Source: Apostichopus japonicus
Lineage: Eukaryota > Echinodermata > Holothuroidea > Aspidochirotida > Stichopodidae
NCBI RefSeq assembly: GCF_037975245.1
Contig: NC_092575.1
Location: 26,190,841-26,254,840 of the forward strand
Direction: 5' to 3'
DNA: 64,000 bases
In this document: positions 11,350 to 49,300 of the stretch, piece by piece
How the letters are laid out: each line of letters starts with the position of its first letter
Position numbering within the stretch: position 1 is the stretch's first letter
Notes under the pieces: generated by a model
The model's input: only the letters and a program-made list of their open reading frames with translations
What the model was told of the DNA's origin: nothing
Databases searched by the model: none
Program-made: the position numbers and the translations under genes

Positions 11350-14300
11350 ATGGCTACTCCGAGGCTGAAAGTGACATACAAAGACCTCCAGAGAAGGGTT
11401 CAGATGAATAAGGACAAACTTGCAGCAGAAAATTCAAAGGGTAACGCAATTCTTCCTTTAATGCTACATTAAAAGCAAGACGAATTGATAGGTATTCCTA
11501 ACGAGTAACGGGACTAACACGATAATGTAGGCTATTGCAGGCCTACTCTTGTTGCAACCGTCACAGTACCAGTGTACTGTAACATTACAAGGATTTTGTT
11601 ACTGGATATTTATTTACTTTACTGTAATGTAGACTCAGCACTGAATTAATCATGATAGTTCATTTTTAAATGTCAATAACACCAACCTCGGCAACATTAG
11701 CTGGTAAAATATTTAGTTTTGCGATGTGCATTTAGTCTAATAAACCTTACTTGCTCCAACAATAACAGCAAATTAGTCTTATTCTCAGTCTTAAGTAGGA
11801 ACTAACAGTACAAATAATGCAAGGACTAGGCCAAGTAAATGGCAAATTGTATATTTTTCAGTCAAAATCTCAGTGATTAAGCTAGGCACAGAAATATCCT
11901 GACACAATTGCAGAGTATAATGCAACTAGAAATCTTATCCACGTAGCCTACAACATCGGCTTTGCCGACAGTCAGCATGCAATAGAAAACATCAAGTCTG
12001 TGTCATATGAGAATGGGCAATCTGCTAAATCTGCTTATGTAGCCAACAGAGCTTGCTATTAAACATCGCACTAAAATATTTTTCAGAGCAAATCATTTTC
12101 AAACAAATCCAAGATATTTTCAAAAATATCCTTTACAAACTGCCAATACCTGAAGATTCTCCCTGGCAACGTAGCCAGCAGAGTCAGGGAGCTAACTTGT
12201 GTTAGACTCAGAAAAAAGCAGTAAACGATGTTTGTTGAGTCATTCTCAAAAGCAATTTGTCAAAGAGTGATTTGGGTAAAACGAAATTGCCTAGCCTAGA
12301 CTGACAGTGACAGCGAAGCCACTGTTTCGTGAGGGGTTGTTCGCGAGTTGCTTGGTATTCTGCAATTACTTCAATATCATAACCGTGAAACAAAGGAATC
12401 AAAATCCAGCCTACATTAGGCCTATAGCTTGATTAAAGTTAGATTTTTCAGATAATGCAAACTTCAAATGTTCAACTATATAGAATGAAGGGCCACTTGA
12501 AAAATGTTTCCCAGTTGCATGGATGCCCAGTTATGTCTTCTCCCCAATCAGCATCAATGTTCCCAAGCTGAAACCTTGGACTAAGAGTTCCTGGCTGTAT
12601 ATATACATCAGAGAATCAACTTCAGTGTCTCTTGAAAAACGCATATTATAAGCAAGACACTGTAACAGCACAATTATAGGTCATTCTTAAAATCTCACAT
12701 AACGTACAGTATGACTGCTTTTTAGACCCAAAAGCTTGATGAGAAAAGCTGAGCTATGTATTTGAAAAACATGCCACCATTGTGTAGTCATCTTTAAAAT
12801 CCAGAATTTTCACGGTCTTCATCATCATTGTTGGAATTCAGTAGTTTTTAGAGAACTAGACTTTGAAGACTGAACATTGCTCAGTTTTTGCAACCTTGTG
12901 AGCACAAATTCTTAGAGCTTGCAATGCACAAGTACATGATATATCATATTTAGATTTAACCATGGAAAGCAAATCTGAATTTGAAGAAAATATTGCCAGT
13001 TTCCCTTTGTGTCATATATAGTGTTTGTTAAGTTTATAGTACCATAAGCTGCTATTCCGTTTCTTTTTAGAGAGTGAAAAGAAGCATGATACTAACTTAT
13101 GACACCATTTCCCTGTTGAATGGGTTACTTTTGTTGTAAGTGACAAATTAATATGTGACAAATTTCTACCCACAGTACTCCAAGAATGCACATGAAATCA
13201 ACAGTAAATGTAAATAAAGCTACTTTCACAGTTACCAAATAGTTGCCATCTGGAGTTCATTAAGTATGGTACCTATATGGATGTATCTGTGTATAAGGTT
13301 TAAGGAGTAAACATCTCCAAAAATGTCTGAATAACAATTAATACTATGCTGTACATGTATGTGGTTTATGTGGTGCTTTGTGTTTTCTCCTGGTTTCAGA
13401 GTGGGCAGTTTTTTCTTACAAGTGATCTTAATTTCTTTTCTTAAAATGCTTGAAGAATTATACATGACAAAACTGTGTAGTCCAAATTAAGTGACAATGA
13501 ACTTGTAAGTTAATAGGATTCTAAACCATGATGCATTGTTGAGTGGTGGGTGTGCTTAATCCTATTGAAGTGTTCATGAACTTCCAGCTACAATGATTGA
13601 CAGTGATATAGAACTAAGAAGCTTAGCTGATAAGCCTTATTGATATATTGAATGATGAGTTTGATTAAAATACTGTTTGATTAAAATACTAGAAGCTAAT
13701 TAAGGGGACTTAATGTCATTATGTTTTGGTACAAAGAACATAGATTGAATGTAAAGAAAATATCAATCCTGGTTTGCCCTACTGTACAGTGTTCGTCTCA
13801 ATTCACAAGATTCAATTTCACGCAGATCACTTGATTTAAGAAACTTATGGTGGATTTGGAGATACAGTAGCTGGTATTTCAAAGAGCTATGTATTTTGGA
13901 TTGTATATTTATTCAATATTTTGATACTGTTTTGAACATGAAGGTATTCTGAAAACAAGTCATGTCACTAAAGTTAACAAACGCAACAATAAAAGTGTTG
14001 AAATTAAGCATAAACTTTGCAAGTGGAGAAGAAAAAAATGCTTTGAGTCAAACTTGTGGAACATAAAATTTTTAAGTTGTGATGCGATTAAAACTTACTG
14101 TACAGTATTGATGAGAATGATGCAAGAATGACAACCAAACCACAAAAAGAAGCTTCAATCATTTGTTTTCAAGGTTCAATGAGTTTAGGCAGTAAAGCTT
14201 CGATATCATTGTTTCCTGTTTCCATCAGGTCTCTCATCCTTTTCCTGGAAAGCTATCTCCCTTTTTGCAAAGTGGTTGGTACTGTATTCAGTGTTTACCA

Positions 14301-17300
14301 ATTAAAATGTGGAAACAATGTTAGATATATGTATGTGAATGGATTGGTAGTGCATCTACACTGCCTTCCTCCCTTACTGATTTACCAATTAGTTAGTTCT
14401 GTCCTTGTAGTCTTTCTCTGTGTTGTGTCTAGATATGCTCAAACTACATGGAGTAGCAATATAAATCTTGTAAAGTTCTCCCCAGTAAGTGTTCCAAGTT
14501 TCATATTGATGTTAAACGTTCTTTTCAAACAGATGCCCAAGACATGCACAATGAGAGAATTGATGTTGCCCCGGTGTCCCGCCAAGATAAGAGGAGTAGG
14601 AGGCCTGACCAGGTCATTTATAGGCCAGGTCAAAGGAGGCAAGGGAAAGGTCAATCGACAGAAGAAGGAAAGCCCACCACGACTGACAGGCAACAGACAT
14701 CCAACCAACAGATATCCAACCAAACACAGCCTCCTGCAAAAGCTCCCCAGAGGCCACAGAATGATTTTGGTGACCTCATGGTCGATAGTGGATTGAAAAC
14801 AACTCCCCCCGGTAGGAAGTTTGGTCCCCGTGGTAGACAAGCTGCTTCTTTAGCTGCCAATGCTCCAACCAAGAAGATCACTCCAGAGTCATCCCCTTCC
14901 GCAGGGTCAAAGTCCAAAAATGGTGACTCAGAGGAGGAATTGTTGTTAGATGCGGATGCCATGGTGGCAGAAGCAAAGAATCACACTACAGCTCAGGATA
15001 CAAATGTGTACTCCTACAACAACAGGCCAAAGAAAAATGACCATAGAGGTCAACATGGTGGAGATGTTCAGAGTAGGGTATTCTCCAGGAGCAAAAACCA
15101 CCAAAGAGAGCAGAGGGTTATACCAGATGAAGAGGTGACTGTAGAAAAAGAAGCAGCGATGAAGCCACAAGAGGGAGGGTCTGTTCACAATGACACAGAT
15201 GAACTAAAAGATGATGTAGAGGATGGAGAGACATGGAAAGCCCACCTCGGAGGAAATACAAAAATAACATGCAGGTTCAACACATCTTCACTACCAGCAA
15301 CAGAAGGCCTTGAATCTGAGGGTCCTAATGTGGCTCATGAATCAAATAGGCCAAAGGGAAGTCAACCTGGAAGGGGTGGGGATAAATCAAAAGGCCCCAG
15401 GGGTAAGCTGCACACCCTCCTGAAAGCTAGAGAAAAATACGACAGTGGCAGTTCCACAGGAAACGATAAGCTTGAAAACTTTGGGAGATTTGCCTCAGAG
15501 TCGGACAACTGGGACCCCGAGATGGAGAGAGCCGACTATCAGCTTCAGACCATGGTAATATCGTCCCGGACGAGAAGCGGGAAGGGCAGGCAGGAGGACG
15601 GACTGGAAAGAGAGGAAGAGCAGCAGCTGAGACGTCCGAGAATTCCAAAGTTTGAGACTCCAGAGGTCGGGGAAGAAGAGTTTTACTGGGATGAGGACCT
15701 GATCGATCCTAAAAAACACAACGGAGACAAGGAAGGAAGGAACGCCAGACAAGGCAGGGTAGGAGAGAGGAATGCCGAGAGTAAAGTCAGACACGAGAGA
15801 CGGCCACCATCACGAGAAGACAAAATGCAAGGGAAGGAACCAGAGTACAGGACAAAGCCAGTGAAAGGGAGAGGACCTGTTAGGAGCAGACTGAGGCAAG
15901 ATTCAGAGAGTTCAGAGGAAGCCTGGAGCACACCTTTCAGGAAAGGTGACTCGCGAGTCGCTCGCCTCAGACGAGAATCGGGAAACTCCAGAAGCTCTGA
16001 TGATTATGATTCTGATAGGCACGAAGAACGACATACTAAAGGAGGAGGGGGTATACTCCATCTGGGAGGTAGGAGTAGCCCCAAGGCTATTCCCGAGAAT
16101 TCCACTACCAGGGGTCACCGAGAGGTCACTCACAAGAAAAATTCGCCGGGGAGAGCTCAGAGTCCGGCGCGAAGTCCCAAACCAAAGGACAAGCAAAAAG
16201 ACAGCAGGCTGTGGGATCCGAGTAAACCGAACCAACGACCAGCACTGGAGCAGAAGCCACCAAGCACACAACTGGTGTTTCTTGATTCTGACTCTGAAAC
16301 ACAGAATTCACCGGCCGACCGGGGAAGTTACGAGTACGGTACCAGCTACCAAGGCTACGATCCCAGTGCCTACCCACCGGTTCAGTATCAGGGTTACCAA
16401 CAGAATTCGACTCAGTCCTGGGCCGACCAAACAGAATCGTCTTATGGGTACCCGCCGACAGCCATGCAACCACCGTCGCAGAGTGTACCATACGGGTACT
16501 ACAACACCCCTGCTCAGAGTATGAACTTTGACCCTCAACAGATAGCACTAATGCATGGTAAGAGAGCCAAAGAGCAGGCGGCCATGCAAGTAGTTCTGGA
16601 AGCTGCTAACAAGGAAACCGACTTTAGCAATGCTGTCGTCCAAGGGATTCATTCCAAGGAGAACCTACAGATAGTGCTCAGTATCAGGTAAGTCAATAAA
16701 TCTGCTCACTCAGTCGTAGGCCTACAGTAGTTAGGCCATTATAAAACAAGACATTTCATCATCAAGGCCTTCAAACTTAAAATGTCAAGACAGATAGGCC
16801 ATTGTTTAAGACAAAGGGAGATCTGAGATTGGTTTGTTGTAAAATTTAGTGTAGTTTGTATTTATGTATGTATTTTAGATCCTCCTGCAAGCAGGAACTT
16901 GCGAAGAAGCCATCATTGGCTTATCAAAGCCGCAAAGCCGCAAGTTTGTGTAAGAAGCATGGATTGCTTAGATTTTCATCAGAATTTTAACACAGAATTT
17001 TTTCTGAGTCTTTTAAGCTGGAATAGTCTAGGGATCAACTCAGCTAGATATATTTATGACAATGTGTATAATCACCTAGTGGGGTGTCTTGATGCCTGTG
17101 AACTACTAGTTAAGTTTTAATTAGTATCTAACAGAACTAAAGCAAGCCTGGGATCTAAGTATATTTCGTTCAGGAATACGGACATCTTTCAACTGTGAGC
17201 CCTGAAACATGTCTCTATTAAGAACTGCTACTTGTTTACGATTTAATTTGAAATAACCATTCTTAAAAAAAACTAACCAGAAGCTCTGGAAGTATTAAAA

Positions 17301-20300
17301 TATATTCATTTCAGGAAGCTGCTACAAGAAAGCTTATCATTGTGTGAACAAACATTTTTGTGACTTACCACATCAATAGCTCTCACAACTGACTTCTTCT
17401 TCTTCTCCTTTTTCTTCCAACATCAGGAAAGATTTGGAAAAGCTCTACGAGGGTATCGTCCTACTGGATCTCCAGATCTCCACCCAATACAACATTGAGC
17501 AGTTGTTGTGGAAGAATGCCTATTACCAGCTATGTGAACTGATGAAGAAAGAGGAATATGCAAAGGATACTACCTACAAAGATGCAATGGTGGAACTACT
17601 GCAAAACGTAAGAATTTACCATTCCGCGATGCTGTAGGTCGGATCAATTTTAAATGTAAACAAAATGGGAAACTGACTTTCAAATTTTAAAAGAAACTGC
17701 AGAAGTGCAAAGAAATTTTTGGCTAGAGGAGGATTTGAGCCGGTGACCTCCTCTGGGTTGCACAGGCCCTGACTGTCAGCTGTTTGGTCCTTTATTGGTG
17801 GCCATCCCTACATAGCCATTAGATTTGCAGTCATAAGCCACAGTACTTTGCATACACCAGGAAACACACCCCTATTTCATTGACTTCAACCCAGATAGCA
17901 GCAGGGTAAGGGGTGTCAAATAGATTTGGTTATTTACATATTTAGTAAATGAACAATGAAAAACTGACTTGGAAATTATTTTAAAATATCAAGAAAAAAA
18001 AAGGAAAAGTGCAATTTTGCGACCTGAGTTTTAACTTTTATGATCATGATATTTTCAGACTATTGCTGCAGCTGTTTCTTACTGTCCTTGTACTTACATC
18101 TTTGCAAGTCGTTTCTATCACAAACTTTTGTTTTCTTCATATTTTTGACCTTTTTTCAGGGGTCAACATTTTATGAAGAATTGTTAGAGAAACTGCAATC
18201 AACATACTGTTTTAAGTTAGACACCAAGACCGGCTTGGATCCGTTACACGAAGAACCCAGGAGAACGGTTAGTTGATTCCATTGGTGACCTCTTGAATCT
18301 TATTTATATTATTTAGTGTCATTTAAGCAACAAGATCTACTTCTACAAGCCACACCTTAACAATATATTGGAGGTATTATAGGAGCACAGTTTGTAGTAT
18401 TGAAAATATTCTCTTGGACGTACAGTAAGAAGTGACCAGGCAGAAGTTATTCATTTCTTCATATTGGTATTCCAGATGGGTAGACAAGAAAAAAAATATT
18501 TAGAATTTTTTATATATTTTTTTACACATCGTGATGGTGATATCATAATCATGAGAATGATTGTATTATCTGAACCTAATCAGGAGGAATTTTTTTGATC
18601 AGTGTACTGAGAAGGAGGTATTTTTCATTGTAAATATTCAAATTTGAATAGAGTTGTTATGAGACACTTGTAACTTAAAGAGTTTTTGTCTTTCACAGAT
18701 AAAACTGGCAATACTCAGTGCTCAGAGATGTATGATAGCTCTGGGTGATATTGCAAGATACAAAGAACAAGCTCATGGAACTAGCAGCTATGGAAGAGCA
18801 AGAAGGTATGTTTTATCTCTCCTACATATGTGAAGTAAAACTTTCTAGTTTTTGTGGGAGTGAGATGTAGCATTGCATTAAGTGTGGTGTAGCGTTTAGA
18901 GGGAGGTTTGGTGTACCAGTTAGAGAGGTGAACTGTGGTGTAGCAGTTAGGTATTATGTATAGTGTTACAGTGAGGTTTGACATAACAGTTACAGGTGCA
19001 AGTGAGGTTTGACGTAACAGTTACAGGTGAAGGTATAATTCAGTTGGAAGTCTATGCAGTGCGTTACTTATAGGTGAAGCTAAACCCGAGGGTTTCATGT
19101 GCTGCATCAATAGAGCTAAAGTTATTTTGCAATTAGACAAGAAATGGTTGTTACATAGCGATAAGAGCTGATAATGTGTTGTATCAATGTACGTAAGAGT
19201 ACATTAAGGTTTAATGTATTGTGTGTTAAAGGTGTGGCATAGTTAGAGGTGAAGCAGTTAAATGGGTGAGTTGTGTCCATGGCAGAGAAGGTTCACTACA
19301 GCATCTATATATGATGTTTGTTAATTTAACATACACCATGTTAAACTTTTGTTTTTCGAATATCTTTTTAACAGCTGGTATACGAAGGCTCAAAGGTTAG
19401 CTCCAAGAAATGGGAAACCATACAACCAACTAGCGATCCTAGCTCTCTACACTGTAAGTATGTTTCTACCACCATTAGGGGTTCAAGCTTTACTCTGTGT
19501 CATGACAGTCTGTCTGTCTGTCCCTACTTATTTTCAAATTCTGCAGGACACAAAAGATTGTCTGTTTTTTTATGAAAAGATTTGTTAAATTTTGGTATTA
19601 ACTTTAAAATGTCAATGAATACATTTTTTAATCATGCATGTGCATATTAAATGCATTAGTCAATACAATTTACAACATTTGTATATAAAATGCATTAATA
19701 AATACATTTATAGCATGTGTATATTAAATGCATTATTCAATGCAATTTATAGTATGTGTATATAAAATGCATTTGTCAATGCATTTTATATCATGTGTAT
19801 ATTAAATGCATTAGTCAATGTATTTTTATAGCATGTGTATATCAAATGGATTAGTCAATGCATCTATAGCATGTGTAAATAAAATGCATTAGTCAATACA
19901 ATTTACAACATGTGTATATAAAATGCATTAGTCAATGCATTTTATAGCATGTGTACTTAAAATGCATTAGTCAATGCATTTTATAGCATGTGTATATTAA
20001 ATGTATTGGTCAATGCATTTTATAGCATGTGTATATTAAATACATAAGTCAATGCATTACATAGCATGTGTATATAATATGCTTTTGTCAATACAATTTA
20101 CAACATGTGTATATAAAATGTATTAGTCAATGCATTTTATAGCATGTGTATAAATTATGCTTTAGTCAATGCATTTTATAGCATGTGTATATAAAATGCA
20201 TTAGTCAATGCATTTTATAGCATGTGTATATAAAATGCATTAATCAATGCATTTTATAGCATGTGTATATAAAATGCATTGGTCAATGTATTTTATAGCA

Positions 20301-23300
20301 TGTGTATATTAAATGCATCAGTCAATGCATTTTATAGCATGTGTACTTAAAATGCATTAGTCAATGCACTTTATAGCATGTGTAAATGAACTGAATATGT
20401 GTTTTATGTTTGATCTTCATCTTCCATCCTACCAACAGAGAAGGAAATTGGATGCAGTCTATTTCTACATGAGAAGTTTGGCAGCTAGCAACCCATTTAT
20501 AACAGCCAGGGAGAGCTTGATGACTTTATTTGAGGAAGTTAGAAAGAAGGTGAACAAAGATTTTATTGAAAACAAATGTACTGATATTGAAGACTCCTCA
20601 CTTACCTATCTCCTCACAACCAATGTACTCTTGTATGTATTGCCCAATGTTAACCATAACTGTCGATTGCAGTACTGCACACATCTTTCTGAATATATTT
20701 AAATCTCATTATCAAAACTTCCATAATTCAATGTAAAGTCAGATATTGCAAAATGTTGTCCCAAGTTAGATGTTCAGCATCTGGTGGAATGTGTTTTGCG
20801 GATTCTTGTATTGTGTCTTTACAAATTGTGAGTTTGAAGATACACTGCACACCATTAAAAGGCGACTTTGGTTTCAGTTAATGAGACCAACTATTGGGAA
20901 GAGAAATATGATTTGTTTGCTGAGTCTTAGATCAATATATTATTCTTAACTCCAGGCATGGTCAATTCACAATAACTATGGTTGAAATTAGAAGGTAACA
21001 TCGGAATATATACTGCTCCAATTTGAGCAAATATGATATATTATCTTTATTATCTCTCGGTAATGTGTTAATTGTGACTTGCAAGTTGAATATTTATCCA
21101 AGATCGGTTTTGTCTCTCGTTTCATTTTTAGATCGAACACAAAGAGCAAGAAGTTCTACGACTGAAGAAGGAGAAGGAGTCTCGTCTAAATCAACCTCCG
21201 CAGAGGAGGGGACAAAGGGGAGGAGATGACGGGGGTAACCGGAAGGAGATCTGGATCCATTACGATGGTACCAGAGCAGGGGCTAAACCTCATGATATGG
21301 AGGAAGAGGAACAACTTAGTGATGAAGAAAGCAGTGAGAGGGAACTGAAGAAGATGCCCCCAGCTGAGGTAATGCATAGATGCTGGCCTGATGAAAGGGT
21401 TGTTGGGGGGGGGGGAGCAATGGGAGGGAATTGAAGAAGATGCCACCAGCTGAGGTTATGTATAGATGCTGGCCTAATGAAGGGTGGTTGGGGAGGGGGG
21501 GAGGGGAGCAGTGAGAGGGAACTGAAAAAGATGCCCCCAGCTGAGGTAATGCATAGATGCTAGCCTGAAGAAAGGGGGCATCAGGGGGGAGGCTATAGCC
21601 ACGGGACCCCCATGGAAATATATATATTTAGCTAATGTAGTTTCATTTTCTTTTAATAAACTTATACATTATTATTCATTCACATGTTATTCATTAGCTC
21701 CTTACTAAGTTGTGCAGCATTCCTTGAAATTGATCTCGGAGGTTGATAAATAGGAATGTATGAGGCCTTGAATTCTGTAACCAATTTCTTCTTTTCTTTT
21801 GTCGCAGTTGAATAAGAGATTCGTTCTCAGCTTTCTGAATGTTCACGGGAAACTGTTTACAAAGATTGGGTAAGCTTTCTTCTGTTTTGTAATTGATTAT
21901 ATCCAAACCATTTAGAGTGTATTCTTCAGCATTCTGTGAAGGGTGCAGTATTTGGATGGAGAAATAAATTGATTGTTTAAAAACCTGTGACTAGTAAAGT
22001 CACGTATGTGAAAAGTAGAGTAACTTCAATATGCGTTAATCATGTATTATGAATGGTTTCATTGTTATATATATCACCTAGTAATTGTTTCAAGAGAGCC
22101 AATTTAGGCAGAATAATAGGGTGGGGGGGGGGTCGGGGGATGGCTGTACAACCTCATGGATGAAACTTGAGGGGCACCATGGAAAAAAGCACACACACGA
22201 TGATGCTGTTATTCTGATATTTGTGATGGAACTGCAATTAAAATCTGAATTTCTTCGTGTGTACTGTTGTTTGTTATTTCAAGTTGTTGATTAATGATCA
22301 TGTGACTTGTGTCCAGTTTGGTTGTAACATTTTCTATTTTTTTTTTCTTTCTTGTAATTGTTAACTATCAGAATGGAGGCATTTTCTCATGCCGTGGGGA
22401 ATCTGTTGAAGGAATTTAGCGCTTTGCTAAGCCAGACTCCAACTCCCATCACCAGTAACAGACTCTTGCAGCTAATGGCTATCAATATGTTTGCAGTTGA
22501 AAACACAAATGTCAAAGGTAAGGACTGTGAGAGGAATCAATGTAAGATGGATGACTGACCTAATGCTGAAGAAGAATGGTATGCAGAGAGAGAGAGAGAA
22601 AAAGATGGGGGTTGGGGGGAGTAGGGGCTAAAGCAGCTAGGCACAGGTTTACATAGGGGGGCAGTGAAAATATGTGAGAAAGAATTATGTTATGTGTTGT
22701 CATTTGCATTTGAATATAGTTATTTCCATATTTACAATAATAAAAGTGCAATGGAAATATACAGTAAACTAGAAATTAAGTCAATTAAATTGCAAACGAA
22801 CTGAAGGGAATGTGGAGGCCTGGTGATATAATTATCCATGGGGCCAGAAACTGGCTCTCAATTCCCCTGACTGTAGGAGTAAAGGTAGAAAGCAGCAAAG
22901 TGTGGTGTAATGGTAGAAAGCACATGTTAAAATGTAAGACTGTCATAATTATCGAATTGGTTTTGTGACCAGTGTCAGCCTTCCAGTCCTGAAGAAGTCT
23001 CCATCTCGGTGTTTATTTTCAGATGAGAGGACAGCATCTGATGACCTCAGGCCATACCTTCAAGAGCTTTCAGTTCAACTGGGATTAGATATGTTCATTA
23101 TTCTGGTACAGAGGTGCAGTGAATATCTTAAAAGTAAGTGTTTTATTTATTCATTATCTAAAGCTTTTATGCGTCATTTTTGCTCATATTCATCTAAGAT
23201 ATTGATGAGATTCTAGCATCGATCTCTCCTTCCATCGTTTGTTGATAAATATTACCCAGAGAATGTTTCAACGTAGTTCAGACACATCCTCACAACTACA

Positions 23301-26300
23301 TTTGGTAATAATTAAATTGATTATGAAAATAACAAGAAAAAATACAACACAAAACGGCAGTAAGGATTAGAACACAACAAGTTCTATGCAACAACACATC
23401 AACAATGGAATAACCATCTTAAGTCTTGCACATACACAGGGTTCAAGAAACTAGTGATTTTGTATCAAATTGATACTCATCACACAATGTCAGCGTCAAT
23501 GTCATTGGATTCAAAGCGAGGAAGGGGTTGAAGATCGTTTCATAGGAACCTTAACTTACCTTTTAATAATTAGAGAATTGCCTCAGTTCCAGTAGTTGTT
23601 AATCCACCAATCACTCTGTGTCTTGATTTCACTGTCTTTAATTATCTTGCTGTTTGATTAATGTTTGTGTTTCCATCCATCCATGTGATTCTCCCTCACC
23701 CCCCCCCTTCTCCCCCTCCAAAGAAGACTTGCAGAAGCAGACCAGACCGGACCAGTGCCTTTGCGAGGATCTCCATGAGATGCTGCCAGCTGTCAAGGTC
23801 TTTGCTGATTGGATGATGTGTCATCCAGGTTTATGGAATCCACCGCCGACTGTAAACGAAGAGCACTTAGTGTGAGTACAAAACATTGTTTCCTAAGTCT
23901 AGGGCTTGGAAAAATGATCATTTAGTACTTGTTATAAGAGTTACATTTGTAAACTGATTCTTGAAAATGACAAAAATGATCATTTAGTACTTGTTATAAC
24001 AGTTGCATTTGAAACTGGTTCTTGTGATGGTTTGACATGCTCATTTCAGTGTCGCAAGACAGCATGAACACCCAGTATCACAGACTGTCTTATAACAGGT
24101 TTTGGGTAGGTCAGTTAGGTATGCATTGGGTCACGGACAGTGTATCAAGTAGAACTTGTGTCACTGTGGTATGATACATCTGTCACATATGACTTGTGTC
24201 ATGAAGATGTGACTTGTGTCTGTCAGGTATGACTTGTGTCAGTTAGATGTAACAAGTGTCAGTGAGGTATAACTTCTGTTAATCAGATATGAATTGTTCA
24301 TTCAAGAATGACTTGTGTGAGTCAGGTATAACTTCTGTTAGTCAGATATGAATTGTTCATTCAAGAATGACTTGTGTGAGTCAGGTATAACTTCTGTTAG
24401 TCAGATATGAATTGTTCAGTCAAGAATGACTTGTGTGAGTCAAGTATGACTTCTGTTAGTCAGATATTGGTCAGTCAAGAATGACTTGTGTTTGTTAGAT
24501 ATGACTTGTGTCACTCAGGTGAAACATTTGTGACCAGTAAACCAGGTTTGAGTTTTGACATGGTTGAGTAACTCTAACTCATGCTTTTCTTTCTTATTCT
24601 TTTAAAAATAAACTATATTATCCCTTACTTAATTTGTCCCTTCATTGTCCCTCTTTTTATTTATCCCTCTATGGTTTTTTATTTTTCTACAATAGTTCCA
24701 AAACAGATGTTTGGGAAACAGTTGCATCGTTCTTAAACATTTTGAAAGACTATGAAGAATTTGGAGTAGACTTTATGCCAGAGTGTGAAGGTAACGTTAA
24801 TACATTCTTTGGTTTCATTTCTCAAATCACTTAGGTTAACTGAAATATTCCAAAACTGTGATATAATATGTAACTAAATAATAGTATTTTACATGAGAAA
24901 AAAACATTTGGAGATAAAAGTCTTAACTTGACATAACTTAATATGATTTGAAGATATTCAAAACAGCTTGATGTTTACAAAATTCAAAAAAACATATAAA
25001 ATTCAGGATATAATGGACTCACTAAAGTGTCCTCTGACACATTTTATAAATTTGTTTAACTTCTTCTTTTTTTTGTATTTGATATAGATTCGGAAGAGAT
25101 TTTGCTTCCAGAAGACCACATGTTGTCTGGTTTTGTGCCTTTACTAGCTCTGCCTCTCAAACCTCTCTACGTTTCTAAGAATGTTGACAAGGTGAGCTGG
25201 TTTTATCTTTCTATCTCATAAAATTGTTTGTTGAGGTAGAGCAAGAGATGGGATGGATAGGGGTTTGTTTGTTCAGCATCAGTCAATGAATATTAGAATA
25301 AATGAATAACAAATTTGCATAATTGTTTGCTTATAAAAACAGAACATGTCAGTACTAAATATACTGCTGGTCTTTGGCTCGGTAATTATGTCACAAACGA
25401 AGCGTTGAGATTAGCATGGAGCAGATACGGATATTGATGATAAGTTAAGATCTGATGAGACATGAGACAGTAAACTGATTTTCTCACTGATCCGTATTCT
25501 CCAAACTTCTTCCAGATGTTGGCCATGGATTCCATCAGGATCACATCACTCAAGTTATTCGGTGAATTCATCTACGGGCAGGAGACACCCCTCATCGCCT
25601 TTGATGGCGCAAGAGGTTGCTACGTATCGGTGGCTCCTAAGATGGTGGCCGGCAGCGTCCAGAGACTGCACAGGAGACTGGATCAAGGAGCCCATCTAGA
25701 GGTTTGATCTTGCTTGATTTCTGAATTGGCAAAACATTTTACTGTAGAATCTGAGGTTAGGTGGAGAATGTTTGCATAGGATGTAAGTACCTAATCCCCT
25801 TCCCATCCCTCCCCCCACCCACATCTTTTGAACGTTAACAAAACCTTGCATGTGTTCGGTCCATATTGAGACAATTCTGAACTACTGGTTTAATGATCCT
25901 ACCTTCTGTCAGGTGAGGGAAGCAACTACTATTTTCTTGTAAGTTGAGTCTCATTAAATAGTTAAATAATTCATTAGTCTTGTGAAGCAGATGAATCCCT
26001 CCCCACTTCCCCACCCTTCCTCCTCCCCATCTGCCCTTCCACTCATCTTATGAAAACCTAGTGTCTTGAATGTACAATTTCATGATTATCATCCTCATTG
26101 AATATACATAATTCATTCCTTGTGGAGGCTTTAATTTGGTATTTTCTAATTCTCCCATGAAAGCCTACATAAAATTGCCTGTCCTGTTTGCCTTATACTG
26201 TTCAGGAGAGTAAGATTTTGCAATACCATACACCAAATACATTGAACATGGTTGTTCATTTCCAACTTTACAGTAGAATAGAGGCAGAAAGTGTTAAACT

Positions 26301-29300
26301 AAATCACATTCATGGACTTCCTCTAGCTTGACATTCCTTGCAAAATCAAGACTTTTCATTCTCATGAAATTTAGAAGCTAAACATGAAATTCGAAATAAT
26401 GTAATATATATAATATATATATATATGTATATAATACATATAATATATATAATATAATACATATAATATATATATTATATATATATTTAAATGTCTGTTG
26501 CTCTCCGTCTTCCCTGCAGGGACATGGCAATGATGATGATGATGATGAGATGCTGGAATCTCACATGGAGGATGGAGCTACCAACGGAGAGTTTGAGGAT
26601 AACCATGTCAGTCATCTCAGAGAAAGAAGAAACAGCCTAGAGAAGCTACTCCTGGAGCAGAAGCAGAAACAAGCTCAAAGACAGGTAGGAAGGAATGTAA
26701 AAAAAGCCTTCATCGGAAAATTGCTAGATATCATGAAATATGGTCACTTGGAACCCAAACTTTTGGCCCAAGCTGGTTACTTACAACACTCTGTAATTTT
26801 TACTTTTTCATTGAGAGAAGTCTATGTTATTTAGTTTTCACTTTCAAAAAAAACTTTTTTTGAGTTATGGATATGTCCTTGTTACAGATCATGTCAACAA
26901 GTGATAAAACATGGACGTGTCCACTATTTCCCAGTCATTGCCTTGATAAGGTTTAAGTAATTCACCCATCTGTACCACTTTAAAGCAAAAACAGACGGAA
27001 CAACCAAAAAACATTGATTAGTTAAATGTTGGGATTCAGAAATGCCTCCCTCTTTGGTAACTTTTTCAAACAGTTTCAATACAGATGTTGACTTTCCATT
27101 ATGTTACCTGTTATGATAATTCAAACTATAACACTGCTATCTTGACAGGCTGTTTAAAGTTGTTTTGCAACCACACAAGAAGATGATACAAATACCACAT
27201 GATTTAAATGCAGTATTTGCATAGGCATGGTGTGCCAAAACTAAGACATAAGTCATACTGTCAGATATGATGAGGGATGGTCAGAGTTGGCCACCAAATG
27301 GTGGGCCAACTAGGGAGCTCTTGGATGATATGGTATTGAAGAATGGAAGTCTTCAAAATGCAAAATGAAGGCTTCAGAAAGTATGCACGGTTCTATGATT
27401 ATCCCCAGGGCCAGACAGGACTGTGGATGCCCCCAAATAATGTAAGCAACAGTAATTAAAGCATTGCATGATATGCAAAGAGCTCAGCACTAAACATAAT
27501 GAGTGCTTGTTTTGCTACATCGGAGGTAACTGTGATTGGAGATGGTTAATGGTGTGTTACGATTGTTTCCTTCCTCCTCTGTTTAGGAAGTCATAGAAAG
27601 GCAACGCACTCAGAGAGACCTGGTGATTGAAATCAACGCAAGATACCTCATCCCGGACACAAACTGCTTCATCGATCATCTGCCTGCCATCGAGGAGCTG
27701 GTGGCATGTCAGAGATACCTGGTCATTGTGCCATTAGTTGGTGGGTAATACATAGTATAACTTACTACATAAATAATAAACACAGAGATACTTGTCATTG
27801 TACCTTTAGTTGGTGGGTATTATACATAGTTTCACTTACTACATAAACCTTAATTCATTGTCATTGTACCATTAGCTGGTGGGTAATACATAGTATAACT
27901 TACTACATAAATAATAAACACAGAGATACTTGTCATTGTACCTTTAGTTGGTGGGTATTATACATAGTTTCACTTACTACATAAACCTTAATACATTGTC
28001 GTTGTGCCATTAGTTGGTGGGTAAAACATAGTATAACTTACTACATAAATAATAAACACAGAGATACTTGTCATTGTACCTTTAGTTGGTGGGTATTATA
28101 CATAGTTTCACTTACTACATAAACCTTAATACATTGTCATTGTGCCATTAGTTGGTGGGTAATACATAGTATAACTTACTACATAAATAATAAACACAGA
28201 GATACTTGTCATTGTACCTTTAGTTGGTGGGTATTATACATAGTTTCACTTACTACATAAATCTTAATACATTGTCATTGTACCATTAGTTGGTGGGTAC
28301 TACATAGTATAACTTACCACATAAACCTTAATATATTTTCATTGTGCCATTAGTTGGTGGGTAATACATAGTATAACTTACTACATAAATAATAAACCTC
28401 AAGAATGAATTATTTTTTTTACATGTTAAAGTTGTCCGGCGCCGTAAGACACCAAGTTACGTTACTGGTGATTTAATGATCTTTCAGCTGCAACTGATAA
28501 AAGTAGTTTAGAAGATATCATTTTCACTTGTCACGGGACAGCAAATATTTGTGATAGCTCCACTGGCCCATACAATAGCTTAGGTTATAACATCAGGCAT
28601 AAGGTGAAACATTTGTCTCAATTCTAGTAGAGCCTCCCACTTTAAGTCTTCTCCTCCAACTCATTAAGACAAGTTGGAATGTTTGCAATATGAAATGTTC
28701 TGCCAATTGACAAAAAATAACAAAATGCAATTGTTTGTTGCATCATAGTCAAAAGAGATCTTGAAAATCCCAGGACCTTTTGCCAACGTTCCTCGGTTCT
28801 GACGAGCTACAAAATTTGTTTGAGATATCAAACATCTACGATGACAATATCATCGTCAAACAAGACAATCCCTCAAAATTTCTGTCACTGCTGGAAAGCT
28901 TCAATTTTTCCTTTTCAACCTTTTCTACATGTAGTGATTAACGAGCTTGACGGATTATCGCACGGATTAAGAAATGAAGGCGCAGGTGTCTCCACAGCTC
29001 AGAATGTCGCAGCATTTGCTGCGGACGCCATCGAATTCTTGGAGCGTTCCTTTGACGAAAGAAACAAGCACTTGAAGGCCATGACCAGCCAGGGTACTAG
29101 GCTGGATACAATAGCATACAGGAGTGAAGAATCCAAGAGAATTGTAAGTTCAATTATGGATCTTGTCATCGTCATGGCGATATCATGCGCTATGGTGTTT
29201 AATACATACACTTAGGGTGCATGCAGTGATGTCATCATATACAAGAGTGCAATACAAGATATGCAATGGTATATTGCACAATGATTGAGTAAACTTTACT

Positions 29301-30973
29301 GTAATACATGCAATATGCAGTGGTGTAGTATGCATTAGTGTAATACTTGTTAGTGAAGTTCTGCACAATATGCTATGTTACAGTAGAGTACAGAGTTGAG
29401 CAATACACAATATAGACAATGTATAATGCTGTAATATATGCTGGTGTATAATAAACAAGCATTCGATGTATGCTGTAGTTTAAAACATGTTAGTGTAAAT
29501 ATACAAAATGTGCAATGATAGAATTCACAGTTGAGCAATACACAATATACACAATGTGCAATGTTGTAATCTATACAAGTGTGTAATAAACAAGCATGTG
29601 ATGCATGCTATGGTCTAATACACGTTAGTGTACTAAATGTTAGTCTAATTATACAAATATGCAATGATAGAATACACATTTGAGCAATACACAATATACA
29701 CAATGTACAATGTTGTAGTCAAGTCTATTGTGTAATTAAGTATGTGATGCATGCTGTGGTCTTATACACATCAGTGTAATACATTTTAGTGTAATTATAC
29801 AAAATATGCAGTGATAGAATACACAGTTGAGCAATACACAATATACACAATGTACAATCTTGTAATCAAGTCTAGTGTGAAATAAACAAGTATGTGATGC
29901 ATGCTGTGGTCTTATACACATTAGTGTAATACATGTTAGTGTAATTATACAAAATATGCAATGATAGAATACACAGTTGAGCAATACACAATATACACAA
30001 TGTACAATGTTGTAGTCAAGTCTATTGTGTAATTAAGTATGTGATGCATGCTGTGGTCTTATACACATTAGTGTAATACATTTTAGTGTAATTATACAAA
30101 ATATGCAATGATAGAATACACAGTTGAGCAATACACAATATACACAATGTACAATCTTGTAATCAAGTCTAGTGTGAAATAAACAAGTATGTGATGCATG
30201 CTGTGGTCTTATACACATTAGTGTAATACATGTTAGTGTAATTATACAAAATATGCAATGATAGAATACACAGTTGAGCAATACACAATATACACAATGT
30301 ACAATCTTGTAATCAAGTCTAGTGTGAAATAAACAAGTATGTGATGCATGCTGTGGTCTTATACACATCAGTGTAATACATGTTAGTGTAATTATACAAA
30401 ATATGCAATGATAGAATACACAGTTGAGCAATACACAATATACACAATGTACAATCTTGTAATCAAGTCTAGTGTGAAATAAACAAGTATGTGATGCATG
30501 CTGTGGTCTTATACACATCAGTGTAATACATTTTAGTGTAATTATACAAAATATGCAGTGATAGAATACACAGTTGAGCAATACACAATATACACAATGT
30601 ACAATGTTGTAATCAATACTATTGTGTAATAAACAAGCATGTGATGCATACTGTGGACTAATACACAACAATCCACCACGCTAAACCCAGCATGACAGGA
30701 TGTAGGGAAAGAGGAATGTGTTAATTTTTGACAAATTCTTAAAATATTTTTTTTCTCTGGTAGGGCAATAATGATGACCTCATTCTCAAGTGCTGTCTCC
30801 ATTACTGTAATGACAAAGCCAGAGATTACATGCCAGCCAACAAGGACGCACCAATCACGCTGTACCGGGAAATCACCCTCCTAACAAACGACAGGAATCT
30901 CAGGGTTAAAGCCATCCAACAGAATGTACCGACCAGTGAAGTGCTGGCTTTCTTGAGATGGGCTAAACGGTGA
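11350..30973 (+). CDS. SMG6: SMG6 / EST1A, NMD endonuclease with PIN domain, 19 coding exons
   Basis: Model: join(11350..11440, 14533..16687, 17427..17607, 18160..18267, 18699..18805, 19375..19453, 20439..20549, 21132..21368, 21808..21869, 22372..22517, 23023..23133, 23724..23871, 24696..24790, 25088..25191, 25516..25701, 26520..26684, 27587..27740, 28935..29143, 30764..30973), 4659 nt, 1552 aa; human SMG6 is 1419. All phases agree. The giant exon 2 codes a charged, disordered N-terminus; RRPDQVIYRPGQ (about 53-64) resembles the exon-junction-complex-binding motif of SMG6. The 14-3-3-like TPR domain runs from about residue 700, with ARSWYTKAQRLAPRNGKPYN and RRKLDAVYFYMRSLAASNPF (from 908). 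The C-terminal PIN domain starts near 1375 and keeps the acidic pocket: D1386 in IPDTNCFIDH, NNDD at 1485-1488 and D1526 in LTNDRNLRVKA. SMG6 cleaves mRNA near premature stops. Several introns hold tandem arrays. Confidence 0.95.
11441..14532 (+). other. SMG6 intron 1
   Basis: A 3.1-kb AT-rich intron between the 30-codon first exon and the giant second exon. Exon 1 ends in phase 1 and joins exon 2 directly in frame (codon GAT), so no further exon is needed. A 222-aa open frame at 14128-14796 runs across the acceptor in a different frame and is judged accidental. No defined repeat was seen. Confidence 0.55.
16688..17426. other. SMG6 intron 2 with a SINE tail fragment
   Basis: Contains, at about 16865-16945, a minus-strand fragment matching the 3' end of the SINE at 7001-7216: 'aagttcctgcttgcaggag' followed by a TACATA-type tail. 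The remainder holds nothing recognisable. Confidence 0.5.
17608..19374. other. SMG6 introns 3-5
   Basis: Introns 17608-18159, 18268-18698 and 18806-19374. A minus-strand tRNA-like piece at about 17725-17800 (B-box-like CGGCTCAAATCC) may be a SINE remnant. Intron 5 has loosely repeated 'gtgtagcagttag' and 'gaggtttgacataacagtta' words at 18870-19030, a decayed short repeat. No other gene is visible. Confidence 0.4.
19625..20390. repeat. 39-bp minisatellite in SMG6 intron 6
   Basis: About 19 imperfect copies of a ~39-bp unit built around 'gcatgtgtatataaaatgca' and 'ttagtcaatgcattttata'. The array fills most of the intron and ends about 50 bp before the acceptor of exon 7 (20439). The unit is very AT-rich and has an internal 'atgcat' palindrome. 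Copy count is an estimate by eye. Confidence 0.85.
20550..21131. other. SMG6 intron 7
   Basis: About 580 bp, AT-rich, with no recognisable gene or repeat. Exon 7 reads out through a GTGAAC donor, weaker than its neighbours. Confidence 0.4.
21330..21590 (+). repeat. Threefold tandem copy of the SMG6 exon 8 end and its 5' splice site
   Basis: The last ~35 nt of exon 8 (codons for ERELKKMPPAE) plus the donor GTAATG and ~30 nt of intron form a unit repeated three times. The true exon ends at 21368; copies of the boundary fall at 21454/21455 (GTTATG) and 21545/21546 (GTAATG). Spacing is 86 and 91 bp, with G-rich linkers. The copies are nearly identical to the exon, so the duplication is recent. 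Confidence 0.85.
21591..23022. other. SMG6 introns 8 (rest) to 10
   Basis: Noncoding apart from exon 9 (21808-21869) and exon 10 (22372-22517). Contains poly-G tracts near 22120 and 22610 and a short (GA)n run at 22590. No gene was recognised. Confidence 0.4.
23134..24695. repeat. SMG6 introns 11-12: 68-bp tandem duplication and 59-bp array
   Basis: Intron 11 (23134-23723) shows nothing defined except a C-rich polypyrimidine tract before the acceptor. Intron 12 (23872-24695) begins with a ~68-bp direct duplication (23908-24030, 'atgatcatttagtacttgtt') and then holds a 59-bp tandem array at about 24180-24520. The array is centred on 'gaattgttcattcaagaatg' (units starting 24291, 24350 and 24409), with more decayed copies on each side. 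Confidence 0.7.
25702..27586. other. SMG6 introns 15 and 16
   Basis: Intron 15 (25702-26519) ends in a (TA)n microsatellite at 26400-26490 close to the acceptor. Intron 16 (26685-27586) shows no defined repeat or gene. The exon between them (26520-26684) opens with GGACATGGC and a (GAT)5 run, giving an acidic stretch in the protein. Confidence 0.5.
27715..28410 (+). repeat. Tandem array derived from the SMG6 exon 17 / intron 17 boundary
   Basis: The exon 17 end (codons for VIVPLV, ending TTAGTTG) with its donor GTGGGT and following intron sequence is the first member of an array of ~66-72-bp half-units, paired into a ~138-bp higher-order unit. About nine further copies of 'attgt(g/a)cc(a/t)ttagttg|gtgggta' lie downstream, at roughly 27812, 27878, 27950, 28015, 28084, 28155, 28224, 28292 and 28355. 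Every copy keeps an intact GTGGGTA donor core. Confidence 0.88.
28411..28934. other. Rest of SMG6 intron 17
   Basis: About 520 bp of unique AT-rich sequence between the boundary-derived array and the acceptor of exon 18 at 28935. No gene was recognised; an open frame starting at 28820 runs into the true exon 18. Confidence 0.4.
29220..30665. repeat. 150-bp satellite-like array in SMG6 intron 18
   Basis: Tandem units of close to 150 bp, anchored by 'cacagttgagcaatacacaa' near 29823, 29973, 30121, 30271, 30421 and 30571, with more decayed copies to about 29240. Because 150 is a multiple of three, the minus strand stays open for 212 codons (30671-30033); this is a product of the period, not a gene. 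The array lies between two PIN-domain exons. Confidence 0.88.
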
Positions 30974-31089
30974 AGGGAATCGACTGCGGTACTTGTGTTG
31001 GGAGGCAGGAATAAGGAATGTCACAGAGATTGTAATGCAGATTGTGTAGGTCACAAAAGTGATTAATGAATTGTTGTGTGCAGGTATTA

Positions 31090-32800
31090 GAGGAAATAAG
31101 AACTGTCGTGCGAAGGTGCTTGACAAAAACGAGAACTGTAGTGAGAAATGTTGTGGGAAGGTCTCTAGAAAATGAGAAACCTGTGTGAAAGTCTCTAGAA
31201 AGTGACAATGTTGTGCAAAGGTTCCTAGAATATGAGTAAACATTGTGTGAAGGTTTCTAGAATATGAGAAATGTTGTGTGAAGGTTTCTAGAAAGTGAGA
31301 ATGTTGTGTGAAGGTCTCTGAAAGTGAGAATGTTGTGCCAAGGATTCTAGACAATGTGAAACTTTGTGTGAAGGTTTCTAGAAAGTGACAATGTTGTGCG
31401 AAGGTTTCTAGAAGATGAGAAACATTGTGCAAAGATTTCTAGAAAGTGACAATGTTGTGCAAAGGTTTCTAGAAAGTGAGAAATGTTGTGTGAAGGTTCC
31501 TAGAATATGAGAAATGTCGTGTGAAGGTTTCTAGAAAATGAGAAAAATTGTACGAAAATTTCTAGAAAGTGACAATGTTGTGCAACGGTTCCTAGAATAT
31601 GAGTAAACATTGTGTGAAGGTTTCTAGAATATGAGAAATGTTGTGTGAAGGTTTCTAGAAAGTGAGAATGTTGTGTGAAGGTCTCTGAAAGTGAGAATGT
31701 TGTGCCAAGGATTCTAGACAATGTAAAACTTTGTGTGAAGGTTTCTAGACAGTGACAATGTTGTGCGAAGGTTTCTAGAAGATGAGAAACATTGTGCGAA
31801 GATTTCTAGAAAGTGACAATGTTGTGCAAAGGTTTCTAGAAAGTGACAATGTTGTGCAAAGGTTTCTAGAAAGTGAGAAATGTTGTGCGAAGGTCTCAAG
31901 AGAGTGGCAATGTTGTGCAAAGGTTCCTAGAATATGAGAAACATTGTGTGAAGGTTTCTAGAATAGGAGAAATGTTGTGTGAAGGTTTCTAGAAAGTGAG
32001 AATGTTGTGTGAAGGTCTCTTAAAGTGAGAATGTTGTGCCAAGGTTTCTAGAAAATGTGAATGTTGTGTGAAGGTTTCTAGAAAGTGACAATGTTGTGCA
32101 AAGGTTTCTAGAAAGTGAGAAATGTTGTGTGAAGGTTTCTAGAAAATGAGGAACGTTGTGCAGAGGTTTCTAGAAAGTGACAATGCTGTGCGAAGCTCTC
32201 TAGAAAGTGAGAATGTTGTGCGAAAGTTTTAGAAAATGAGACATGTGGTACGAAGGTTTGTAGAAAGTGACAATGTTGTGCAAATGTTCCGAGAATATGA
32301 GAAACATTGTGTGCAGGTTTCTAGGAAGTGAGAAATGTTGTGCGAAGGTTTCTAGAAAATGAGAAACATTGTGCGAAGATTTCTAGAAAGTGACAATGTT
32401 GTGCAAAGGTTTCTAGAATATGAGAAATGTTGTGTGAAGGTTCTAGAATATGAGAAATGTCGTGTGAAGGTTTCTATAAAATCAGAAACATTGTGCGAAG
32501 ATTTCTAGAAAGTGACAATGTTGTGCAAAGGTTTCTAGAAAGTGAGAAACATTGTGTGAAGGTGTCTAGAATATGAGAAATGTCGAATGAAGGTTTCTAT
32601 AAAATCAGAAACATTGTGCGAAGATTTCTAGAAAGTGACAATGTTGTGCAAAGGTTTCTAGAAAGTGAGAAATGTTGTGTGAAGGTTTCTAGAAAATGAG
32701 GAATGTTGTGCAGAGGTTTCTAGAAAGTGACAATGTTGTGCAAAGGTTCCTAGAATATGAGAAACGTTGTGTGAAGTGAAGGTTTCTAAAAAATGAGTTG
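31090..32800 (+). repeat. 30-31-bp minisatellite just after the SMG6 stop codon
   Basis: About 50 imperfect copies of a unit like 'aatgttgtgcaaaggtttct' plus 'agaaagtga(ga)'. The array starts about 120 bp after the SMG6 stop (30971-30973), and a plausible poly(A) signal AATAAA is at 33081, so the array may be part of the 3' UTR. Almost every unit carries the palindrome TTCTAGAA, which equals a two-pentamer heat-shock element (TTCnnGAA). Long minus-strand open frames here come from the repeat. Confidence 0.85.
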
Positions 32801-34279: not shown

Positions 34280-34626
34280 AGGCATTGAAGACTCGCCCCA
34301 AACCGCGTGCCGCGCTCTGAAAAGTTAACTTTCCGTTGCTTGCAAATGACGTTTTCTTCTTGTCGCTACTAAATGCAGACCGTAATGAAATGTGATATGT
34401 TATCTTTTATCTAGACCTGAGATGTCCACGCTGTATGTACACAGTGTTGTGGGTATTGACAGTATCTGTATGTATTGACTGTACACTAGTGTCTAATTAC
34501 CGACGGTAGCAACCTGTGTTTTTTCTGGGATCGATGGTGGTGTCTAACACTTCTGTTACACCTCATGGGAAACCAGGTCAGATTACTCGTATGAGATTTT
34601 TCTTTGTGCGCGAGTCTTTACACCCT
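34280..34626. mobile_element. TTAA-flanked MITE, copy B (uninterrupted)
   Basis: 347 bp, with TTAA on both sides (34276-34279 and 34627-34630). The left end reads AGGCATTGAAGACTCGC; the right end, complemented, AGGGTGTAAAGACTCGC. It matches copy A (6741-7320) in reverse along its length, including 'gtgtctaattaccg(a)cgg' and 'tgggatcgatggt', but lacks the SINE. It thus shows the empty site of that SINE insertion. Confidence 0.8.
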
Positions 34627-46370: not shown

Positions 46371-49300
46371 CTATGTGGTAGTGGTGGTTGTTGTGGTGGT
46401 GGGGATGGGGGTTGGGGTGGGGGTGGTGGTTGTCGGTGGCTGCTCTGCTGCTGCTGGTGGTGAGGACACTGGTTGTACCACTTGTGATGAGAATCCCAGA
46501 CCTACACCCCTCTGGGTGTGGGTCTGGAGACGGGCTGTCTGGTATGCATGGTCTAACTTCTCCATCAGATTCTTCTGCTCTATCTGTTGTTGGGCAGTCA
46601 GTTCATCCTCACCTGATGATACAATAAAGAGACGGCAACATTTTAATAACACAAGGGTCATGTTTTAACGAAGGAGATTCCTGCTTCGAAGAGAACTTTG
46701 CAAGCTGATCACCTCAGATTATTATCTCGTCTTCCTATATCGTCTATTATTTGATATAAAAGATTATCTACAAATTAATCTAATTGCAATTGAATATATT
46801 TCAATGGGAGTTCTTTAAAGAGGAAACTCCAAAGTCTTGTAAAGTGCAAGGATGGTGAGCTAAAAATGGATTCATGTGTTAGATCGCCCGGTTTGCAGGC
46901 AATAAAGTTGCTATGGCCAAGAGATACCATTGCAAGATTGGAAATGCTACTTGTAGAAGGTTGCCTACAGTGTCATACAATGTCTGAAAGACAAGTTTAT
47001 ATTTTCAATTTTTTCCCCATCTCAGCTGCAGATGTAGGAGATATAAATATATCCCTTTTGACCTTTGAGGGGGTGGGGGGGATGAGGAATATCATTATCT
47101 CTAATGTATGTTTGAGGCATAAACTCTACACAAATCAGAGACCTGGAAAAATACTGCAGCACTATTTTTACACAAATCTCATCATACACACTACACATAC
47201 AACAGGTGACAATTGTGATAATTATGGAGTACTGTTTTTGTTCCAAGTAAATGGCAAATAGCACCAAACAATGCTTACCAACTTCTCCTTTTATGCCCAT
47301 CAGCCTGCGGAACTTTTCTTGTGTGGATCCACTCTCAAATGTAGTGCTCTCCCATTTGTTGCTGCTTGCTGCTGGAACTTCCACCTATGGATAAATTAAA
47401 GTGATAATAATAATATTATATATTATAATCTGCGAATGCTATTAAAAAGACTTGTTGAAGAGTAACTGTTGTGTCAATTGAATTAATCTTTGTCTAGTTT
47501 CAGTTAAGAAAAAAAGCAAAGAACTTTTTTCCCTTTTAATTATAACATACTTCTTTTTAAGCTGACAGTACTTTTTTCCAAATAGCTGTCAAAGTTCTAG
47601 CTAGGTCCTCCCTCCCCAACAACAGCCACACCCCCGCCCCCCCCCCGAAAAAAACAAAAAAACAGTGCATTTTAATTGATTATTAGGTTCATCACTTCCA
47701 ATGTAAACACAACTTCTGCATATTTCAAAGAAAGCATTATAAAGGGCGAAGTGGGATAAATTCTGATTCTGATCGGATTCTCAACATTTTCATCCAATAA
47801 AAAAACCCAATTGTATATGAAGATGTATCTGACCTCTTCTTTCTTTGACCACAGCATTTTCCTCTTTTTAATCTGTTCAGCGTATTGCATTGGGTTGATG
47901 GCTAAGGGGTTGTAGTAGCTGGGTACTGCTATGCCAGTCTGAGCCAACACCTACAAAAGACAAAGGAAGAATCGACGAGTTAGTTACCTGACATGATCCT
48001 GGCTAGTGGCTACATTAACATATTAAATCAGGCAGAATATATGTGCATCAAATCATCAAAAACTTACTTGCACGTACCACATATAACATGGTCAGCAAAT
48101 GTTTACAGTTACTAATGAATATACATGCTCTGAAACTAATGAATAAACATGCTCTGAAACTTATGAATATACATGCTCTGAAACTAATGAATAAACATGC
48201 TCTGAAACTTATGAATAAACATACTTTGAAACTTATGAATAAACATACTCTGAAACTTATGAATAAACATGCCCTGAAACTTATGAATAAACATGTCCTG
48301 AAACTTATAAATAAACACGCCCTGAAACTAATGAATAAACACGCCCTGAAACTAATGAATAAACACGCTCTGAAACTAATGAATAAAAATGCCCTGAAAA
48401 TAATGAATAAGCATGTCCTGAAACTAATAAATAAACAAGAAGCTTCATGCCTTTCCTAATAAAAAGCATCAAAGTCTACAAAATTCAAACCCTTCCTATC
48501 ACAGCAGCTGACATAGTAGGAAAAACACTTATCTTTCCTTCTAGAATGATGCCAGTAAATCTGAACCTGGAGAGCTATGCAAAGTAGTGATTGCTAAGCA
48601 AAGTAAAGTTCAAAGCAAGCTTGGGATATATGGCAATTATCTACAATGGATGGAAATAACAAGATAAACTGCAGGTTGCGAATGTTTAATGGTAGTCCAG
48701 TCTTCCAAATTTCAAACTACCGATTCAAGTTTAAGATACGGCCTCATACTTCATTGTGTTTCATTACAGAGGGGTTACGTAGGGGTGACCCCTCTCTATA
48801 AAGGGTTGTTTTACTTCATGAATGCCTACCTTAGCTTGCATGGCTGCAGCAGCTGCTGTTGCAGCAGCCTGTACGTTAACCTGTACAGCTGACGCCACCT
48901 CAACAGGATTAGATGCAGCGTGTAGCTGGGCTGCGATGACTGCAACCTCTGTAGGACAAAACACACACATTGAGACATTTATTACCCACGCAGACGATCA
49001 TGAGGGAAATCAACCTATGAGAGTACAGACAAATTTGTGTCTGTTTATTGCTTCAAAATGATACACTTCCAACTTTGGAATTGAATTTCAACTTTTATGC
49101 TGATATTTGATGCATACCTTCTGAGTGGCAGTCAAGACTTTGGAATAGAATTTCAACTTTAACACCGATAATTAATGCATACCTTTCTGATTTCAACTTT
49201 AACGCTGATATTTAATGCATACCTTTCTGAGTGGCGGTCAGGGTATCATCATCGGACTTCTTCTCCTCTTTCTGCCTCTTCTCTTTCTCTTGCATCAATT

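Follow-up and report, generated by a model that had tools for sequence, protein, structure and literature searches.

Ten near-identical 5′ splice sites stand in a row at the end of exon 17 of SMG6: do the nine extra ones form a switch through which the gene could limit its own output, or a repeat that came to lie across an exon end by chance? A preliminary description of the locus had proposed an NMD feedback switch and, as an alternative, neutral slippage that does no harm as long as the first donor prevails. We addressed the question in the whole stretch of DNA analysed (64 kb, GC 35–40%; the window). We conclude that the exon 17 array is a fresh example of an already described kind of repeat and most likely neutral; the sequence gave us no hint of a regulatory switch.

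SMG6 gene model and the true exon 17 donor

We placed 19 exons of SMG6 on the + strand of the window (11350–30974), with exon 1 supported by an ATG and the frame alone. The joined frame is open with a single terminal stop, and the exon number 17 assigned earlier agrees with this model. The joined exons 17–19 match the human SMG6/EST1A PIN domain (PDB 2DOK, E 5.9e-60), gap-free across the exon 17/18 junction, and Pfam places PIN_4 in exons 17–19 and EST1 and EST1_DNA_bind in exons 3–7. Because of the frame and the human PIN match, the donor of exon 17 is fixed at 27740/27741 (here and below, a slash within a splice site marks the exon–intron boundary) and the next exon at 28935. A search for relatives of the SMG6 PIN domain in viral contigs found none.

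27587..27740, + strand: SMG6 exon 17 (PIN domain), donor 27740/27741, TTG/GTGGGT (open frame, 2DOK match)
28935..29143, + strand: SMG6 exon 18, PIN domain continued (open frame, 2DOK match)
30764..30974, + strand: SMG6 exon 19, the last coding exon, which holds the stop codon (open frame, 2DOK match)

The exon 17 donor is the first unit of a tandem array

The repetition of the exon 17 donor observed earlier is real, and our count of one true donor followed by nine further copies confirms the number given then.

27710..28404, + strand: tandem array of ten donor-spanning units in the order A B A B A B A B A A (TRF, motif positions, unit alignment)
27812..28363, + strand: nine intronic donor copies, each GTGGGTA (motif search)
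27812, 27878, 27950, 28016, 28088, 28154, 28226, 28292 and 28356, + strand: last exonic-type base of each of the nine copies

The repeat unit spans the exon–intron boundary, joining about 31 nt of exon 17 to about 41–42 nt of intron. The first A unit is the exon copy itself (copy 0), whose exonic part is the last ~31 nt of exon 17, and the array is mostly a 138-nt dimer: TRF reports a period of 138 for 27715–28325 (4.4 copies, 96% matches) and, as an alternative call, a period of 64 for 27788–28389 (8.9 copies). Measured from 27740, the spacings of the ten donors are 72, 66, 72, 66, 72, 66, 72, 66, and 64 nt. The motif GGTGGGTA occurs ten times on the + strand of the 64-kb window, always inside this array (and once on the – strand), and it is present in 10/10 array copies, so the splice signal is carried by each of them. 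The donor core reads TTG/GTGGGTA in nine of the ten and CTG/GTGGGT in the one at 27878. The 28-nt context of the exon 17 donor (–16..+12) has a 28/28 copy downstream, which 0/300 dinucleotide shuffles equal.

The units differ in how much they have diverged. Over 65 aligned columns the four B units show no differences, while the five intronic A units are 90–97% alike. With the exon copy included, the six A-type copies vary at 16/63 columns and contain no identical pair. The exon copy is 84–92% alike to the intronic A units and 92% alike to the B units; it matches the B units in its 5′ part (CAGAGATAC) and the A units in its intronic part, the pattern one would expect had the array started from the exon end. 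The repeated stretch had been described as the last ~20 nt of the exon, which holds for the A-type copies (about 19–20 nt in common with the exon end) and falls short for the four B-type copies, where ~31 nt are alike with one gap and a few mismatches.

Use of any copy would lead to one early stop codon

Reading past the true donor reaches a stop almost at once, as the preliminary description had stated, and two exon junctions do lie downstream of it.

27746..27748, + strand: in-frame TAA reached if the true exon 17 donor is bypassed (frame reading)

For all nine copies this TAA would stand 64–608 nt upstream of the new junction and 273–817 nt upstream of the next one, so that the premature stop of each of the nine predicted isoforms lies more than 50–55 nt before a junction, the distance used for AS-NMD. 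The claim that use of any decoy would give an NMD-sensitive transcript is thus formally right, and it is not specific to this intron. Among the 17 SMG6 introns tested (introns 2–18; the model has 18), reading past the donor meets an in-frame stop in 17/17, after 4–153 nt (median 30), and in five of the other 16 the stop falls within 9 nt of the donor. We therefore rejected the stop codon as a sign of design.

The true donor is weak, which makes some leakage plausible

Donors were scored with a PWM built from the window's own 35 donors, each left out in turn; the scale is rough, with 11/35 sites placed by eye. The true exon 17 donor is weak (score 3.58, rank 33 of 35), eight copies equal it (3.58), and one, CTG/GTGGGT, is stronger (5.78). 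Since the copies have equal or higher strength, a win of the first donor would have to come from its position and exon context. We rejected an excess of strong decoys in this intron: donors scoring at least as high as the true donor number 11 in its 1,194 nt (true donor uncounted) versus 93 in the 10,551 nt of the 16 other SMG6 introns, so the density is no higher here. The pattern ATTAG-TTG-GTGGGT might suggest recursive splicing or a microexon of 3 nt; both were likewise discarded by eye, because AG and GT are not adjacent and the sequence is therefore no ratchet site.

These scores bear on a rival reading that overlaps with the neutral one, a leaky but unselected array in which copies are used at a low rate, NMD clears what results, and the number of copies has a slight negative effect on SMG6 output with no regulated switch. 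Leakage is plausible because the true donor is weak and the copies are equal or stronger, and the copies share with it not only the donor core but about 19–20 nt or more of exon context. Data from lancelet Adh3 and RT-PCR of globin genes, as reported in PMC3087553, argue the other way by suggesting that comparable repeats leave splicing undisturbed. A leak of this kind is compatible with neutrality, so the probabilities of the two readings overlap; at a low level it is quite possible, though we consider it less likely than not.

The array is probably young

Near-identity among the B units together with 90–97% likeness among the A units indicates recent homogenization. The intact donor copies fit this youth, because the four B units are identical. 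Within the array, a comparison confined to this one sequence, the donor core varies in 1/9 columns versus 18/62 for the whole unit (hypergeometric P = 0.19 for one or none). With no significant excess of conservation, we set aside purifying selection on the donor core as unsupported; the array appears young and bears no sign of long retention.

Identical units also raise the question of whether misassembly inflated the copy number, given that tandem arrays are assembly-prone and that a lancelet globin array is said to have been misassembled in a draft (PMC3087553). We think this very unlikely, as the variation among the six A-type copies and the presence of two further arrays of the same kind in the window speak against it.

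Other splice sites in the window carry arrays too

In a local-copy test of 35 donors and 34 acceptors of the window (300 shuffles each), 3/35 donors and 1/34 acceptors stood out. None of 300 shuffles reached the match of the SMG6 exon 17 donor, of the SMG6 exon 8 donor (28/28), of a – strand donor belonging to an RS-rich gene (21/28), or of the acceptor of that same RS-rich exon (22/28), and the next best site after these four was reached by 16/300. All four sites (3 donors and 1 acceptor) lie within the 24 frame-tested introns of the tested set, 18 from SMG6 and 6 from the RS-rich gene. The sites placed by eye comprised 11 donors and 10 acceptors: 3 donors and 3 acceptors in an SHPK-like gene, whose by-eye exons give no open frame when joined, 7 and 6 in the first gene, and 1 and 1 in the RS-rich gene.

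21330..21576, + strand: second donor-spanning SMG6 array, at the exon 8 end CTGAG/GTAATG (TRF, shuffle test)
49073..49242, – strand: third donor-spanning array, in the RS-rich gene, limits by eye (TRF 49150–49230, 2 copies; sequence)

The exon 8 array has three copies that each include about 39 nt from the end of the exon; its donors are at 21368 (true), 21454 (GTTATG), and 21545, with spacings of 86 and 91 nt. In the RS-rich gene the exon end CAGAAAG/GTATGC recurs two further times in the intron; the true donor is at 49223 and the copies are at 49183 (by reading and best match) and 49118, the third copy containing a longer piece of exon. The acceptor copy of this exon lies 31 nt upstream (49365–49423, – strand). 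We take the RS-rich gene to be reminiscent of RSRC2 (SREK1 has also served as a label), and it is not known as an NMD gene; Pfam gave no match to its C-terminal part. The gene labels in the rest of the window, SHPK-like, RSRC2-like, and SPATA22-like, are likewise our assumptions.

The frequency of such arrays can be set against the repeat content of the gene. In the 17 introns between exons 2 and 19, 24.5% of SMG6 28-mers are matched at 21/28 or better somewhere in the 1.2 kb downstream of them; the figure is 0.7% for exons and 7.7% for the whole window, the last being close to the 3/35 donors that have a copy. We placed the eight arrays of the SMG6 span at random, allowing at most 60 exonic nt per array (a limit set after the arrays were known; SMG6 only). 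Donors were struck 0.89 times on average, with P(2 or more) = 0.22, and we rejected special targeting of SMG6 donors on this value. For SMG6 acceptors 0.86 hits were expected on average and none was observed (P(0) = 0.41). The rate at which SMG6 donors are struck is thus close to the chance level for a gene so rich in repeats. Arrays inside SMG6 exons, for their part, are presumably removed by selection.

Several repeats lie away from splice sites. Large intronic SMG6 arrays occupy 29476–30667 (150-nt units), 19636–20384 (39-nt), and 24187–24513 (20/59-nt units), and ~54 copies of a 31-nt repeat (31140–32776) start ~166 nt past the SMG6 stop, which probably puts them within the 3′ UTR or close to it. 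Two oppositely oriented copies of a dispersed repeat (7150–7220 and 16870–16940) have a core of GCAAGCAG/CTGCTTGC next to TATG/TACA repeats and look SINE-like by eye. At 7270–7320 and 34280–34335 a short dispersed repeat (GCATTGAAGACTCGCCCC...) occurs as an inverted pair that appears, again by eye, MITE-like. Patterns made from a dispersed repeat had no match in viral and prokaryote contigs, and searches of the window for tRNAs and against Rfam (gathering score) were both negative.

Discussion

The exon 17 array is, with high probability, a young, neutral, mirage-type minisatellite that spans a 5′ splice site by chance. We infer the order of events, the choice of donor, and the neutrality of the array as follows. 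A tandem duplication of ~72–73 nt (~31 of exon end and 41–42 of intron start) would have given the intron a donor of its own; this new copy would then have diverged, and unequal exchange or replication slippage may have amplified the resulting 138-nt dimer ~4 times. Every extra copy is downstream of the real donor, so the spliceosome would go on using the exon-proximal site and the copies would leave with the excised intron. A copy used now and then would yield a premature-stop transcript, and since NMD is expected to remove such transcripts, the array would be hardly visible to selection. Of the two ideas put forward earlier, tolerated neutral slippage with a winning first donor is therefore the one that fits best, and it corresponds to a phenomenon reported from lancelets (PMC3087553, PMC3902484). 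Harmlessness is not automatic for such repeats, as boundary repeats are reported to alter splicing in some human genes (PMC2812944).

Mirages are described as tandem repeats spanning exon–intron boundaries in lancelets, reported for globin genes with Adh3 and other loci cited; the same report describes length and somatic instability and finds regular splicing, from Adh3 data and globin RT-PCR, apparently undisturbed even though many repeats carry splice signals (PMC3087553). A second report adds PGBD5 as a mirage locus and, citing earlier work, states that the mirages of Adh and troponin C give rise to no aberrant mRNAs (PMC3902484). As given in these two sources, the lancelet loci (Adh3, BflGb6, BflGb9, troponin C, PGBD5) have units of tens to about 160 bp across the boundary and copies of splice signals, and the units of BflGb6 show concerted evolution. 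The exon 17 array resembles them in that its unit spans the boundary, its copies carry splice signals, and arrays occur at several splice sites within the window; it differs in its host gene, SMG6, its ten units, and its A/B dimer pattern. It thus has the defining structure of a mirage, and we place it beside the lancelet examples by structure only.

Other systems are less close. Minisatellites at exon–intron boundaries also occur in human segmental duplications, where they are reported to modify transcripts and to be able to create new introns (PMC2812944), whereas such effects of the exon 17 array would be hypothetical. In the Rogers model of intron gain through AGGT-type proto-splice sites (as cited in PMC3087553), a splice site is likewise copied by tandem duplication, but here the array lengthens an existing intron and no new intron is seen. 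A literature search on sea cucumber minisatellites returned unrelated matches.

The other earlier idea, an NMD feedback switch, found no support. It holds that high SMG6/NMD activity, or a shortage of U1, leads to the use of one or more copies, after which the TAA is reached, NMD follows, and less SMG6 is made. The stop shared by all nine copy isoforms and the weak true donor are what such a scheme would use, and many RNA-binding proteins are reported to regulate themselves through splicing of this type (PMC6547761). As in AS-NMD or poison-exon autoregulation, any copy that is used would give rise to a transcript of the NMD type, but a switch role for the exon 17 copies is a candidate only. 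Against it, the early stop is generic, donors of at least equal score are as dense in the 16 other SMG6 introns, similar arrays stand on SMG6 exon 8 and in the RS-rich gene, and the young array shows neither long retention nor significant excess conservation of the donor core (P = 0.19). Among the matches listed (including PMC6173133 and PMC6547761), no title or beginning of an abstract reported self-regulation of SMG6 by splicing. We regard such feedback as highly improbable. Less probable still is an inherited rheostat, in which the copy number of a possibly unstable array would set how much SMG6 pre-mRNA is diverted to the NMD-sensitive form, so that individuals would differ in NMD capacity while SMG6 cleared its own diverted transcripts. 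Regulation, by switch or by copy number, is accordingly possible only at a very low probability.

The array would gain much greater importance only if transcripts using its copies exist. Taken as a mirage-type repeat, it adds SMG6 to the genes with such arrays and, if the host is not a lancelet, makes the phenomenon wider than in the two lancelet reports (PMC3087553, PMC3902484). Should it be neutral, its row of ten near-identical donors offers a clear example from nature in which to ask how the spliceosome picks the exon-proximal donor.
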